Shown here: positions 23,878 through 61,895 of the stretch, piece by piece
Numbering within the stretch: the first letter of the stretch is position 1
How the letters are laid out: every line of letters begins with the position of its first letter
Source: Parvibaculaceae bacterium Mf 1.05b.01
GTDB lineage: Bacteria > Pseudomonadota > Alphaproteobacteria > Parvibaculales > Parvibaculaceae
DNA: 64,000 nt
Direction: 5' to 3'
Assembly: GCA_000509225.1 (NCBI GenBank)
Contig: BAOK01000002.1
Location: forward strand, 376,496 to 440,495
The notes under the pieces: generated by a model
What the model saw: only the letters and a program-made list of their open reading frames with translations
Databases searched by the model: none
What the model was told of the DNA's origin: nothing
Position numbers and translations under genes: made by a program

Positions 23878-26800
23878 TTAGTCGGCAGCAAGACCGCGCA
23901 GCACGTAGTGGAGAATACCGCCATTGGCGTAGTAGTCCACTTCGTCCTGGGTATCGATACGGCAGGTCAGATCAACCGACTTGGTTGAGCCATCTGCAAA
24001 GGTGATCACGGCCGTCACCTCATCCCGAGGATTAATGTCTTCGAGACCTGTGATGGTGACGGTTTCAGATCCATCGAGACCCAGTTCCTCCCAGCTGTCG
24101 CCGTCCTTGAACTGCAATGGCGCAACGCCCATGCCAATCAGGTTGGACCGGTGGATCCGCTCGAAGCTTTCTGCCACCACGGCTTTCACGCCGAGAAGCA
24201 TGGTGCCCTTTGCTGCCCAGTCGCGGCTTGAGCCGGTGCCGTACTCTTTCCCTGCGAATACAACCAACGGGGTGCCCCGCTTCTTGTATTCCATGCAGGC
24301 ATCATAGATCGGCATCTCCGTGCCTTCAGGCTGGAGCTTCGTCACCCCACCTTCTGTGCCGGGGACCATCTGGTTTTTGATACGGATGTTGGCGAACGTG
24401 CCGCGCATCATCACCTGGTGGTTCCCGCGGCGAGAGCCGTAGGAGTTGAAGTCCTGTACACCCACCTGGTTGCGGGTGAGGTAGGAGCCTGCAGGGCTGT
24501 CCACCTTGATCGACCCGGCCGGTGAAATATGGTCGGTTGTGATCGAGTCCGCGAAGAGACCCATGATGCGGGCATTATGCACATCTTCCAGCGGTGCCGG
24601 TGTGTCGGACAGTTCTTCAAAGTAAGGCGGATTCTGTACATAGGTGCTGTCATCGTTCCAGCTATATGTTTCCCCCTTACTGGTTTTGATCGCCTGCCAG
24701 TTGCTGTCGCCCTTGAATACGTCCGCATAACGTTCGCGGAACATGGCTGGGGTCACAGCGGTGCGGACCACATCGGCAATCTCTTTATTGGTTGGCCAGA
24801 TGTCTTTCAGATAGACGTCTTTGCCATCCTTGCCTTTGCCGATGGGCTCTTTGGTGAGGTTCTTCGTCACTGTGCCAGCCAGGGCGTAGGCCACAACAAG
24901 TGGCGGTGAGGCCAGATAGTTGGTGCGCACATCAGGGCTCACGCGACCTTCGAAGTTCCGGTTGCCTGAAAGAACCGAAGAAACAACCACATCATTGTCG
25001 GCAATCGACTTAGAGATTGCCGGTGGCAGAGGACCGGAGTTCCCGATGCAGGTTGTGCAGCCATAGCCCACGAGATCGAAACCGAGACCATCGAGTTCTT
25101 TCTGCAGACCGGCTTTTTCGAGATATTCCGTCACAACCTGAGAGCCAGGTGCCAGGGACGTTTTTACCCAAGGCTTTACTTCGAGGCCCAGAGCCCGTGC
25201 CTTCTTGGCGACGAGGCCAGCTGCAATCAACACACTCGGATTGGATGTGTTGGTGCAGGACGTGATCGCAGCGATGGTGACATCGCCATGACCGATGGTG
25301 AAGTTTTCATCTTCCACATCGAAGCGGGTTGCTGCTTCTGCAGCTTTGTCGTATTCGCCACCAAGTGTCGCGGCGAAGCTGTCGGATAGTCCTGTGAGGT
25401 CAACCCGGTCCTGCGGGCGTTTGGGTCCGGCAAGTGCGGGAACCACGGAGCCCAGATCCAGTTCCAGGGTTTCTGTAAAGACAGGGTCCGGCGTGTCTGA
25501 GGTGCGGAACATGCCTTGCGCCTTGGCATAGGCTTCAACCAGGTCAACACGGGCTTTGTCCCGACCTGTTGCACGCAGATATTTGATGGTTTCTGCATCA
25601 ATCGGGAAGAAACCGCACGTGGCCCCATATTCCGGCGCCATGTTGGCGATGGTTGCCTGATCTTCCAGAGACAGGTGATCGAGGCCGCCTCCGAAATATT
25701 CGACGAATTTGCCGACCACGCCCAGCTCGCGGAGCATTTCAACGACTTTCAGCACGAGGTCGGTCGCGGTTACGCCTTCATTCAGCTTGCCGGTCAGTTT
25801 GAACCCGACAACTTCAGGGATCATCATTGTGACAGGCTGACCGAGCATGGCCGCTTCCGCCTCAATGCCACCGACACCCCAGCCAAGGACCGACAGGCCA
25901 TTGATCATGGTGGTGTGGCTGTCTGTGCCAACGCAGGTGTCAGGGTAGGCCATTTCAACTGTCTTGGACGCACCGTCTTTTTCCGTGCGGGTCCAAACAG
26001 CCTGGGCCAGATATTCCAGGTTCACCTGGTGACAGATACCAGTCCCAGGCGGCACAACGCGGAAATTATCAAATGCCTGGCTGCCCCAGCGCAGGAACTC
26101 ATAGCGTTCCTGGTTGCGTTCATATTCCAGATCGACGTTTTCCTTAAACGCTGTCTGGGTGCCGAACTTGTCTACCATCACTGAGTGGTCGATCACGAGA
26201 TCGACAGGCACCTGTGGGTTGATGCGTTTTGGATCGCCGCCGAGCTTGGCAACGGCGTTCCGCATCGCGGCTAGGTCAACAACGGCTGGAACGCCGGTAA
26301 AGTCCTGCATCAGCACACGGGCTGGACGATAGGCGATTTCCCGGGTGGATTTCCGGGTCTTCAGCCAGTCTTTCACCGCTGAGATGTCTGCTTTGTTGAC
26401 AGTCCGGCCATCTTCAAAGCGGAGAAGGTTCTCAAGCAGCACTTTCAGGCTGAAGGGGAGGCGGGATACGCCTTCCAGGCCATTTTCTTCGGCCTTCTTC
26501 AGGTCGTAATAGACATAGTTCTTGTTGCCGACTTTGAGATTTGAGTAAGCATCAAAGCTGTTGGTGCCCAGCGGCTGCAAATTTGTCTTGGGGGCTGCTT
26601 TAGGGGCTGCCTTGCGCGCGGGAGCTTTTTTGGCAGGAGCTTTCTTAGCGGGTGCCTTTTTCGCTGGAGCTTTAGCCTTAGGTGCGGCCTTTTTTGCTGG
26701 CGCCTTCTTCGCAGGCGCTTTTGCTTTTGGAGCAGCCTTGCGGGTCGCTTTACGTGCCTGGGCCTTTTTCACCGGTGTTTTCTTCTTGGCAGGAGCCTTC

Positions 26801-58940: not shown

Positions 58941-59846
58941 ATGGGACGTCTTGTTGGCATCGGCGGTGTACTGATTGTCGTTGCCGTGGTGGGCCTTTTT
59001 CTGGGGTTTGGTGCTTATTTTGTCGAAGACATTGAAGGGAGCGGCGCAGAGACGGGGGTTCCCGCGTCGGATGAGGCCAGAGCGGTCGTGATTGATCCGG
59101 CCTGCCTTTGGCCCCTCTTGGATGCATCGTTCTCGCCAGATGCCCCACCGGCTCCGAGCCAGGTGAACCTTCAGAACTGTGCTCCGGCGGACGCGGAGAT
59201 TGTGCTCGACGGTGACTGGAATAGAGTATCACTCCAACGCGGGGAGCCTGGAGAGGCTGATTTTGAACGCCGGTTCTCCGGCGTGCGATTTGCTCACCTG
59301 TCTGATGATGGGCGGCTCGCCCTAGAAGCCTATGATAATTGGGGTGGATCGGGCGTTTTCAGCTCTCTGGTGGCTGGACGGTTAGCTGCAGACGGCGCGG
59401 CGCTTCGCGACATCAAGGTTCATGCCTTTGGTGATCGCTGCAATGGAGGGCTTGCGGGAGCTGCGATGAACGCGGGTGGGCGTCTCACTGCCAGCGCCAA
59501 CATGACACCCTGGGATATTATGATAGAGCCGTTTGCCGATCTGCCGTTCGAGGCGCAATGGGAGGCTGGAAAAGCGCGGTTTGGCGCGGCCTTTGGCCAG
59601 GCTTCTTCCTGCGCAATTTGCTGCTCTGCCGTTACCAGGGAATATGGGCAAGACGACCAGGGCGGCTTGGTTGCGGTCGGATTGCGCCATGATCCAGGCG
59701 CTGCACCTTCGTCCGAGGACGCGCTGACTGTCTGTCTTGAAGACGCGGTAAGACAGGCGGCGGGTGCCGATGCGTTGGTGGAAGCGGCTGAGCGAGCAAC
59801 CCTTGGTCCCTTGATAGATGCTTGTGCAAAAGCGGTGCCTAACTAG
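58941..59846 (+). CDS. Hypothetical membrane-anchored Cys-rich protein
   Basis: A 301-residue protein with one N-terminal membrane helix (about 7-30). Eight cysteines in the outer part, including ASSCAICCSAV, and an Ala-rich C-terminus. I recognise no family. Its stop codon overlaps the palindromic site at 59844. Confidence 0.65.
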   Translation: MGRLVGIGGVLIVVAVVGLFLGFGAYFVEDIEGSGAETGVPASDEARAVVIDPACLWPLLDASFSPDAPPAPSQVNLQNCAPADAEIVLDGDWNRVSLQRGEPGEADFERRFSGVRFAHLSDDGRLALEAYDNWGGSGVFSSLVAGRLAADGAALRDIKVHAFGDRCNGGLAGAAMNAGGRLTASANMTPWDIMIEPFADLPFEAQWEAGKARFGAAFGQASSCAICCSAVTREYGQDDQGGLVAVGLRHDPGAAPSSEDALTVCLEDAVRQAAGADALVEAAERATLGPLIDACAKAVPN

Positions 59847-59858
59847 AGCAATACTCCA
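59844..59858. promoter_or_regulatory. TetR-like palindromic site 1
   Basis: TAGAGCAATACTCCA, identical in inverted orientation to site 2 at 60518. Position overlaps the end of the hypothetical gene, downstream of tetR. Confidence 0.4.
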
Positions 59859-59928
59859 AAATCGGTGCCCATTGTCAGGCTGCCATTTGTCAGCGATGGT
59901 TGCTCTGCAGGCAGAGGCTCGACCCGCT

Positions 59929-60513
59929 TTATGAAAGCAGCGCCTTTTGTGCCAGTCTTACGAGGTTTTCGATGTTTTCACTCGGTGGAACCTTCGACTG
60001 TCCGGAGAGCCAGGCGCGGCACATGACCTGCGTTGGGCCGACCAATGTCGCCAGAATTAGAGCAAGACTCCAGTTCTGGAGGCGGTCCTTGTCATCCAGA
60101 TTGTTTTTCCAGTCCTGAAGCGTCTGTCCAAAGCCCTGGTTTTCGGCCCTGATCCTTTTCAGCGCTGTGTCGCTCCAGCTTGGATGTTGACCGTTAAAGA
60201 GAATGCGTGCGCCGTCTGGGTCGCGCTCAATCCAAAGGTTATGGGTCCGAATGAAGGCGTCAATGCCATCTGCTGCGCGCCGCGTCGGTCCGATTTTTTC
60301 AGCAATTTCCGCCTGATAGGTGCGCACAAGGGTCACAAAAACCGCGACGGCGATGCCTTCCTTGTTCTCAAAATGGTGGAAGAGACTGCCGTTCGACATG
60401 CCAGCGGCCTGGCGAATCTCGGCGGTTGAGACGGCGTCATAGCCGCGCTCTGAAAAGAGCCTTTTCGCTGCTGCGACGCCGGCAAGATAGGTTTTGCTTT
60501 CTTTCGACACCAT
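59929..60513 (-). CDS. TetR-family transcriptional regulator
   Basis: A 194-residue protein. HTH: VSTAEIRQAAGMSNGSLFHHFENKEGIA (about 27-54), followed by an all-helical ligand domain. The ATG at 60511-60513 (MVSKES) is preferred over an upstream frame extension, and the palindrome 60518-60532 sits 5 nt before it, the classical place for autorepression. Ligand unknown; the serine hydrolase gene upstream on the same strand may be its target. Confidence 0.87.
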   Translation of the reverse strand: MVSKESKTYLAGVAAAKRLFSERGYDAVSTAEIRQAAGMSNGSLFHHFENKEGIAVAVFVTLVRTYQAEIAEKIGPTRRAADGIDAFIRTHNLWIERDPDGARILFNGQHPSWSDTALKRIRAENQGFGQTLQDWKNNLDDKDRLQNWSLALILATLVGPTQVMCRAWLSGQSKVPPSENIENLVRLAQKALLS

Positions 60514-60517
60514 AGAC

Positions 60518-60532
60518 TGGAGTATTGCTCTA
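60518..60532. promoter_or_regulatory. TetR-like palindromic site 2 (tetR operator candidate)
   Basis: TGGAGTATTGCTCTA, the exact reverse complement of site 1. It lies between the hydrolase stop and the tetR start, 5 nt from the ATG. Confidence 0.55.
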
Positions 60533-60561
60533 ATGCGTTCGCCGCGCAAGCCAGGAAGGTG

Positions 60562-61407
60562 CTAGAATGCGCCAAACTGGTTGGCCAGCGTTTGCATTTT
60601 AGCATACGCCGCATCCTCTGGTCCGTCATAGGGCATGAAATAGCTCACCGTGATGCCGGACCCTGGAAAGTGAAAGCAGGATGTGCTGAAGCCGGGGCCG
60701 CTGCCATTATGTCCATAATTTGTGCCGGACAAATCTCCCATGACCCCCAGACCATAGGCCGCATCTGGATAGGTTGGGCCCGCATCGGGCACAGGCACGA
60801 GCTGGCGGGCGAGGCTCGATACAAGGTCTGAAGCCATAAAGTGCGCGGTATCGCGGACATTGCCGCAGACTATGCCGTGCCAAACCCAGCCTGCGTCGTA
60901 TTTGGGAAGGTCCTCGGAAAAGAGGCCGCTTGCGACACTGAACGAGGGTGCGTCAAAACTCCCGGCAATTCTCTCTTTCACCAGGGTGGCGAAATCCATC
61001 CCGCTTTCCTGCTCGCAGATCCGCTTCAGCGCCCAATAGCCGGGGTTTGAATAGGCCCAACCCTGTCCTGGTTCGAACAAAAGCGGCTGTCTCAACGTGT
61101 GCTGGGCGAACTTATCGTCGGTCCACGGGGCGCCGCCAGCCTTTACAGCGGTGTGGTAGGCGTCAACGCTGAAATAGTCGCGGAGGCCAGACGTGTGGGT
61201 TAATAAGTGTCGCAGGCTGATTTTATTGCCCTGAGGCAGCCAGCTTTTCTCCAGCCAGTCTGAGGCCGGTCGATCCATCTCCAGCTGCATATCGAGAATG
61301 AGTGCCGCAATGATCGTCTTGGTGATGCTGTAAAGGGGAAAGGCATCAGCTTCATTTTGTTGGAGTAATACTCCACTTTGGTCGATAACGCAGAAGGATG
61401 GGTCCAT
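60562..61407 (-). CDS. Serine hydrolase, beta-lactamase family
   Basis: A 281-residue protein without signal peptide. SxxK is SITK (Ser27-Lys30), the YxN motif is YSN in GWAYSNPGYW, and GHNGSGPGF is the HxG equivalent of KTG. LLTHTSGLRDYF is the family helix. Esterase or peptidase activity is likely. The palindrome at 61361-61375 lies in codons 11-15. It may be in one transcript with tetR (48-nt gap). Confidence 0.85.
   Translation of the reverse strand: MDPSFCVIDQSGVLLQQNEADAFPLYSITKTIIAALILDMQLEMDRPASDWLEKSWLPQGNKISLRHLLTHTSGLRDYFSVDAYHTAVKAGGAPWTDDKFAQHTLRQPLLFEPGQGWAYSNPGYWALKRICEQESGMDFATLVKERIAGSFDAPSFSVASGLFSEDLPKYDAGWVWHGIVCGNVRDTAHFMASDLVSSLARQLVPVPDAGPTYPDAAYGLGVMGDLSGTNYGHNGSGPGFSTSCFHFPGSGITVSYFMPYDGPEDAAYAKMQTLANQFGAF
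61361..61375. promoter_or_regulatory. TetR-like palindromic site 3 (perfect)
   Basis: TGGAGTAATACTCCA: TGGAGTA and TACTCCA are perfect inverted halves. It overlaps the start of the serine hydrolase coding region. Two of the seven positions in one half differ in sites 1 and 2. Confidence 0.4.
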
Positions 61408-61490: not shown

Positions 61491-61895
61491 ATGAAGCGGG
61501 CGGTCGTGGGTGATGTGACTTTGGTCGAAGAAGAACCTGGTATCGTTACGATCGACTATGGAACCGCGATTGCGACAGCTGAGCTGGTGCAAGATGTGGT
61601 CGAACGGTCTCAGGAAGAATGGGGGGACGATCGCATAGCCGTTCTCGTGAAGGCCAAGTCTGCAACTGATCTCGCCAAGATAGGTGCCGTCCTTTCCAAA
61701 CATGATCTTGCCAGTTTCACCGTTGCAAGCGCTATTCTCACCCCAGGCAAATTGACCCAGCTCATCGGCAATTTATTCATGCAGTTCCAAAATAGCCCCT
61801 TTCCGCAGCGGCAATTCACCAATGTGGCGGAGGCGCGTGCATGGTTGAGAGATCAAGTGAGGAATGACCAATGCGAACGCCGCGTGGTCAACTAA
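61491..61895 (+). CDS. STAS/SpoIIAA-like protein
   Basis: A 134-residue alpha/beta protein. IVTIDYGTAIATAELVQDVV, IAVLVKAKSATDLAKIGAVL, then SFTVASAIL-TPGKLTQLIGNL and the end QFTNVAEARAWLRDQV fit the SpoIIAA-like/STAS fold often seen next to regulators. No phosphorylation Ser can be named. AGGAGAG precedes the ATG. Function unknown. Confidence 0.68.
   Translation: MKRAVVGDVTLVEEEPGIVTIDYGTAIATAELVQDVVERSQEEWGDDRIAVLVKAKSATDLAKIGAVLSKHDLASFTVASAILTPGKLTQLIGNLFMQFQNSPFPQRQFTNVAEARAWLRDQVRNDQCERRVVN

Follow-up and report, generated by a model that had tools for sequence, protein, structure and literature searches.

What purpose is served by a short palindrome that recurs around one regulator gene? 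The question is raised by a 64,000-nucleotide stretch of the genome of Parvibaculaceae bacterium Mf 1.05b.01 (contig BAOK01000002.1, here C1, positions 376,496 to 440,495; below, the window), in which such palindromes lie around tetR (59929-60513, minus strand), a gene for a 194-residue protein with a TetR_N helix-turn-helix that is their presumed binder. A first-pass annotation had reported three related palindromes and had considered autorepression of tetR, control of a neighbouring serine hydrolase gene and a small mobile cassette as explanations. Here the genome (G000, 3.82 Mb) was compared with six relatives in the genus (G001 to G006). The sites form a larger set that is conserved, is confined to the part of the chromosome near the origin and co-occurs with tetR, and there is strong support from sequence comparison for taking TetR to be their binder. 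Reading the cellular role of the array from its layout, we propose by analogy, with a probability of roughly 0.6, that a former local repressor has been recruited as a marker of the origin domain, working like RefZ, SlmA or Noc.

Five palindromic sites at the tetR locus

The 15-bp palindrome TRGAGYNNNRCTCYA occurs in five copies over 2.2 kb of the window, starting at 59222, 59844, 60058, 60518 and 61361. Searching with TGGAGTANTACTCCA and up to three mismatches gave seven matches in the window against a shuffle mean of 0.98, and none of 100 shuffles got to seven. The loose matches at 23925 and 63424 do not fit TRGAGYNNNRCTCYA, resemble chance and were rejected as members.

The three palindromes of the first-pass annotation, at 59844, 60518 (inverted) and 61361, were recovered as TAGAGCAATACTCCA, its exact reverse complement and TGGAGTAATACTCCA, and two further members were found in the upstream open reading frame (ORF) and in tetR itself. 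We refer to the five as putative TetR sites T1 to T5, with no strand assigned. T1 (59222-59236, TAGAGTATCACTCCA; C1:435717) lies within the upstream ORF, and T2 (59844-59858, TAGAGCAATACTCCA; C1:436,339) between that ORF and tetR, which are convergent. T3 (60058-60072, TAGAGCAAGACTCCA) lies within tetR and holds a GANTC. T4 (60518-60532, TGGAGTATTGCTCTA), the exact reverse complement of T2, stops 4 nt short of the tetR ATG (60513); it had been placed just upstream, correctly, although with a gap of 5 nt. T5 (61361-61375, TGGAGTAATACTCCA) is a perfect palindrome. The description of the sites as flanking tetR and the hydrolase needs amending at this point, as T5 falls inside the coding sequence of the hydrolase, some 40 nt away from its ATG (61407).

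Across the relatives, T2 was retained in G001-G004 with changes at inner bases and is gapped in G005 and G006, T3 was retained in G001-G005 and lost in G006, and T4 was retained in G001-G005, while G006 has a site of its own about 17 nt ahead of its tetR start. T5 was retained in G002 and G003; in G001 a site lies 846 bp from its T4, compared with 843 bp in G000.

The sites are confined to the origin region

In G000 the search for TRGAGYNNNRCTCYA returned 12 exact copies, compared with one for the control, the pattern read backwards. All 12 sites lie within C1:110,834-437,870, a stretch of 327 kb surrounding oriC and parS. Five of them are those at tetR, and the other seven start at 110834, 111661, 111862, 155593, 155832, 166671 and 168849. 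When the arms of the motif were searched with any centre, 18 matches were obtained against 5 in the control, and the six extra matches lack the Y..R inner bases, none of them falling inside C1:110,834-437,870. The genome scan that the first-pass annotation had proposed therefore returned sites confined to the origin region rather than scattered at random.

The origin was located by several landmarks. Two perfect parS sites, at C1:197,018 and C1:199,061, flank mnmG/gidA; mnmE precedes and parB follows. DnaA-box-like 9-mers cluster at 183.07-183.25 kb (three in 500 bases, at most one mismatch each, one box exact); this was the sole such cluster found at 90-230 kb, and a control stretch of the same length yielded none. 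This candidate oriC (~183 kb) is situated between a PPPase/ppsR-type gene and hemE, which is the arrangement of the origin in Caulobacter. The broad minimum of cumulative GC skew, at about 137-172 kb, is near the candidate and not on top of it. The ParB encoded at C1:200,786-201,682 (L102:786-1682) has ParB domains by Pfam and passed the general ParB model, while the Noc model gave 222 bits and missed its cut-off of 315.

Relative to oriC, the seven sites away from tetR lie 14-72 kb to one side and the tetR cluster 253-255 kb to the other. By simple ORF calls, eight of the 12 sites are in genes, three are between convergent genes and one, T4, is just before the tetR ATG (an upstream TTG led the script to label T4 intragenic, and it was counted as the pre-ATG site). 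Because they are mostly in genes or between convergent genes, most of the sites are unable to act as ordinary promoter operators. Genes carrying or adjoining them include those for an Rv0428c-type acetyltransferase, a phosphoglycerate mutase, DUF2244 and DUF2628 proteins and a glutathione S-transferase. At several sites the adjacent gene has its stop codon in the TAG of the motif (C1:155,832 and C1:436,339 in G000; L117:1663, L127:15540 and L126:2997 among the loci examined), as judged by ORF ends 5 nt off the site centre; a stop-codon TAG is a cheap spot for a site in dense coding DNA.

Site number, position and conservation in the genus

A tetR ortholog is present in all seven genus genomes searched, that of Mf 1.05b.01 included, and the six relatives are 60-95% identical. 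The genomes G000 to G006 contain 12, 13, 13, 13, 11, 5 and 10 sites, giving 77 against 9 for the control, whereas 33 other members of the family contain 21 against 34. With draft contigs positioned by alignment to 460 kb of G000 C1, 75 of the 77 sites fall within about 260 kb of oriC (the centre of one of these, G005:C8:158,936, reads NNN). The remaining two are G002:2,640,202 and G006:C7:7,851, the latter without an alignment to those 460 kb.

The two closed genomes have the same layout. In G003 all 13 sites are confined to the origin region, and in G002 12 of 13. Measured from the orthologous origin gap (near 3,134.5 kb in G003 and 3,605.5 kb in G002), sites away from tetR lie 13.5-74 kb to one side, 8/8 in G003 and 7/8 in G002 (the other being at 2,640,202), and tetR is about 239-244 kb to the other side in both. 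By hand arithmetic, the chance that random placement would bring all three non-tetR clusters of G003 to less than 75 kb from oriC is about 6e-5. In G006, the most distant member, sites are found at the equivalents of about 109, 111, 132, 145, 154, 156, 160 and 213 kb, spots that mostly differ from those of G000. Single sites thus turn over while the origin region is retained. Among the sites examined in the relatives, some lie in tandem or divergent gaps (G003 L116:10398; G006 L127:3227, L127:11889 and L131:9429).

Conservation was counted over pooled pairs of orthologs in which the site aligned without gaps and the flanks were at least 50% identical. The eight core bases were identical in 270/280 comparisons, the inner bases in 208/245 and the flanks in 2313/3108. 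For eight intragenic sites, nearby windows in the same codon phase that equalled the site numbered 6/110, 1/110, 2/100, 0/110, 12/106, 7/110, 1/100 and 11/110, so that five stand out (6% or better) and three are weaker. In the alignment of the relatives for cluster C, locus L125 had no match.

TetR as the probable binder of the sites

The protein matched Pfam TetR_N (PF00440) at 1.4e-16 with 60.4 bits (cut-off 24), and its predicted structure has the canonical all-helical TetR fold (mean pLDDT, a per-residue confidence score, 86.4). No second match to it was found in its own genome at 1e-10. Its nearest solved structure in sequence is the PA1836-like 2gen (5.4e-16); nearest in fold are 2gen (Z 19.1, root-mean-square deviation (rmsd) 2.5, 185 residues aligned) and FadR 5gpc (Z 18.2, rmsd 2.8, 183 aligned).

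A search of 385 genomes at 1e-18 identified nine remote homologs outside the genus. Four of them (G009, G071, G347 and G396) have the strict 15-bp operator immediately before their own tetR, in the form of two overlapping 15-mers spaced by 13 bp (one of the pair carries a single mismatch in the arms in G009 and G347), and their recognition-helix regions have SNGSxFH in common. Another three (G040, G240 and G331; loci L142, L141 and L140) have the helix S[VT]GS and a GAA version of the operator, TAGAAnnnnnTTCTA-like and repeated at 13 bp, one copy in G331 being degenerate as read. Neither the strict nor the variant operator was found for G161 and G262. Among these homologs, the change from SNGS to S[VT]GS pairs with the change from GAG to GAA, a natural matched change of helix and site.

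A palindromic operator at the gene's own promoter, kept among homologs, was thus found here as in TetR autoregulators. Because four remote homologs have the same operator upstream of tetR, the palindromes are very probably TetR operators; T4 is the probable autorepression operator of tetR, and the suggestion of autorepression made in the first-pass annotation is supported. Genome-wide, the strict motif showed no excess in these four genomes (G009, 1 against 1 in the control; G071, 2 against 0; G347, 2 against 1; G396, 4 against 5; copies at the tetR promoter included). The local operator thus appears to be the ancestral state and the origin array a derived one. In G009 (L136:613-1449) and G347 (L138:624-1460) an Amidohydro_2 gene lies divergent to tetR with the tandem operator in the gap, and this gene is a possible ancestral target.

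Overlap of the sites with GANTC

The sites fall into two classes. Class counts cover 75 of the 77 sites, leaving out G002:2,640,202, which is outside the region, and G005:C8:158,936, whose centre is NNN; G006:C7:7,851, unplaced near the origin, was counted away from tetR. The centre reads RNY in 22/28 sites at tetR and RNR or YNY in 39/47 elsewhere. Exactly one GANTC, the target of the methylase CcrM, is contained in 37/47 sites away from tetR, compared with 4/28 at tetR and a chance of about 0.14 for such a site shape in the same DNA. Away from tetR, C at position 7 is accompanied by T at position 6 in 37/37 halves, against 27/57 of the other halves, which is the expected outcome of a requirement for GANTC. 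The pentamer is rare in this DNA, with 569 occurrences over 460 kb where base composition predicts 1741. A single N6_N4_Mtase match is present in the genome; it is a CcrM-type enzyme that has a RAMA domain and scored 646.5 bits, under the 830 cut-off of the Caulobacter CcrM model.

The GANTC counts are inflated by related sequences. When sites were collected by hand into position groups, GANTC was found in 15/21 groups away from tetR (3e-9 against background) and 1/7 at tetR (Fisher 0.023 for the difference); in G000 alone the figures are 6/7 against 1/5 (0.07). We regard the overlap as a lead rather than a result. After replication, the GANTC carried by most of the sites outside the tetR locus may serve to tune binding.

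Genes beside tetR

The serine hydrolase gene (60562-61407, minus strand; Beta-lactamase family, PF00144) lies upstream of tetR on the same strand. In G004 just a 58-amino-acid stretch of it was reported (one stretch per query), and in G006 none was found at 1e-5, while tetR and sites persist in both; judged from these genomes, the hydrolase appears dispensable for the site system. Control of the hydrolase, which the first-pass annotation had raised as a possibility for T5, was accordingly rejected as the main role, T5 being intragenic as well. The upstream ORF (58941-59846, plus strand, 301 amino acids) holds T1 and ends in T2, the TAG of T2 being its stop codon; it had no match in Pfam or NCBIfam at 0.001. 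In the six relatives MaoC and sdhA adjoin tetR throughout. An ORF at 61491-61895, between the hydrolase and sdh genes, matched DUF7793 and, weakly, SpoIIAA-like models; it was found in G002, G003 and G006 and was not reported in G001, G004 and G005.

Weighing the explanations

In the mechanism we favour, TetR, presumably as a dimer, would bind the 15-bp palindromes and repress its own gene through the site just ahead of the start codon. The other exact sites form an array limited to the origin-proximal part of the chromosome; TetR bound there would mark the origin domain and relay where it lies to the placement of the origin, to cell division or to the initiation of replication.

Several observations weigh against this proposal. 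All results were computed from sequence, and we infer both the binding by TetR and the cellular role. Two sites, G002:2,640,202 and G006:C7:7,851, are not placed near the origin, and G005 has only two sites away from tetR, one of them that with the NNN centre. T1, kept in G001, G002 and G003, has been lost from the aligned position in G004, G005 and G006, and for site 155593 the alignment shows no counterpart in G001-G004. With two mismatches allowed the motif shows no excess over the control in G000 (42 against 54), a count that was left unused as evidence of enrichment. A small number of sites in the relatives may fall in promoter regions, such as G006:C31:51,429, which lies between divergent ORFs, and TetR proteins of the 2gen and FadR type, 16-25% identical to this one, are listed only as transcription regulators. 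Finally, MipZ is matched in all seven genus genomes at 2.5e-110 or better, and division placement is therefore already served by a system. The Pfam MipZ model also matches in all 14 control genomes, so weak matches mean little; the strong matches throughout the genus rule out loss of MipZ as the reason for a substitute.

The most serious competitor, to which we give a minor share of our confidence, is an ordinary TetR regulator with several operators, which represses itself and a few genes that are near the origin by chance, acting by way of road-blocks inside genes or of loops between clustered sites. In its favour, T4 occupies a promoter or ribosome-binding position, T5 falls some 40 nt inside the hydrolase gene, clustering of the sites would suit looping, and the remote homologs G009 and G347 resemble local regulators beside an Amidohydro_2 gene. 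However, 11 of the 12 G000 sites are in genes or between convergent genes, the hydrolase can be absent, G006 retains the region though places and genes change, and the confinement to oriC and parS is left unexplained. A promoter-bound regulator does not account for the intragenic and convergent sites, the closeness to the origin or the turnover inside the region. That a second protein binds the sites away from tetR, with TetR restricted to those at its own locus, seems improbable. The two classes of centre (22/28 RNY at tetR, 39/47 RNR or YNY elsewhere) would fit such a division, but the tetR-promoter site of G006 has the centre of the other class together with a GANTC, three near-origin G006 sites have the tetR-class centre, the class of T3 varies between species, and an excess of either class is seen solely in genomes with a tetR ortholog. 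Least credible by far is the mobile cassette of the first-pass annotation, bounded by exact inverted repeats at 59844 and 60518. These copies are indeed exact inverted repeats in G000; against this, tetR is present in 7/7 genus genomes and beside MaoC and sdhA in 6/6 relatives, the two copies differ from one another in relatives, and more copies occur elsewhere without common flanks. The variable presence, target duplication and moving copies of a cassette were not found, and we set it aside.

An extension of the origin-marker proposal brings in GANTC, and we consider it speculative, rating it a little below the ordinary regulator. A local TetR repressor would have become an origin-domain protein whose GANTC-based sites are half-methylated by the passing fork, resetting TetR occupancy; division or initiation control would thereby learn from the protein both the location of the origin domain and whether that domain has just been replicated, combining a SeqA-like clock with a RefZ-like position marker alongside MipZ. 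Through the overlap it could be tested directly whether CcrM half-methylation near the origin of an alphaproteobacterium is read by a dedicated binding protein. Should the origin-marker proposal be true, it would be another example of a local repressor turned into an organiser of the chromosome. Both stages would then be in view, the apparently ancestral one as a tandem operator at a single promoter in the remote homologs and the derived one as an array dispersed around the origin in one genus.

Comparison with known systems

Origin-side marking by TetR-type proteins has been described for SlmA and RefZ; our searches of open-licence papers returned no report of such a marker in Alphaproteobacteria. 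According to the part of the RefZ account consulted (PMC6657595), Bacillus subtilis has five near-palindromic motifs (RBM), one near oriC and two per arm, with positions conserved across Bacillus. The likeness is in protein type and in layout, in that a small number of near-palindromic motifs surround oriC and keep their relative positions across a genus; here positions are conserved in G000-G003 and turn over in G006. Differences are the number of sites (12 rather than five), the lack of a sporulation context here, and the GANTC overlap, which has no counterpart in that part of the account (PMC6657595). The RefZ model NF037937 gave 25.2 bits against a cut-off of 180, covering the helix-turn-helix part only. 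In the fold comparison RefZ was rank 20 of the best 50 matches (Z 16.6, rmsd 3.7, 188 aligned, 10% identity) and SlmA was not among these 50, standings that say nothing about function.

SlmA of Escherichia coli is likewise a TetR-type protein with specific origin-side sites, termed SBS (PMC3573117, in the part consulted). There, however, sites extend over the origin-proximal two thirds of the chromosome and are absent near the terminus, whereas the 12 sites here, also origin-proximal, span just 327 kb of 3.82 Mb. None of the 16 NCBIfam families matched by TetR at 0.001 is named for SlmA, the presence of a SlmA model in the library being unchecked. The SlmA consensus differs from the motif found here.

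Noc resembles the present system in its origin-enriched specific sites and, in Staphylococcus aureus, also limits replication initiation (PMC5540599, again as far as consulted); it belongs to the ParB family, in contrast to the TetR protein described here. As in a SeqA-like reader of origin methylation, the sites hold the target of a cell-cycle methylase, with GANTC in 37/47 of those away from tetR and a CcrM-type enzyme present. Because the RefZ model failed and the nearest solved relatives are plain regulators, we liken this TetR to RefZ, SlmA and Noc by the layout of its sites and do not file it as a member of any of them.
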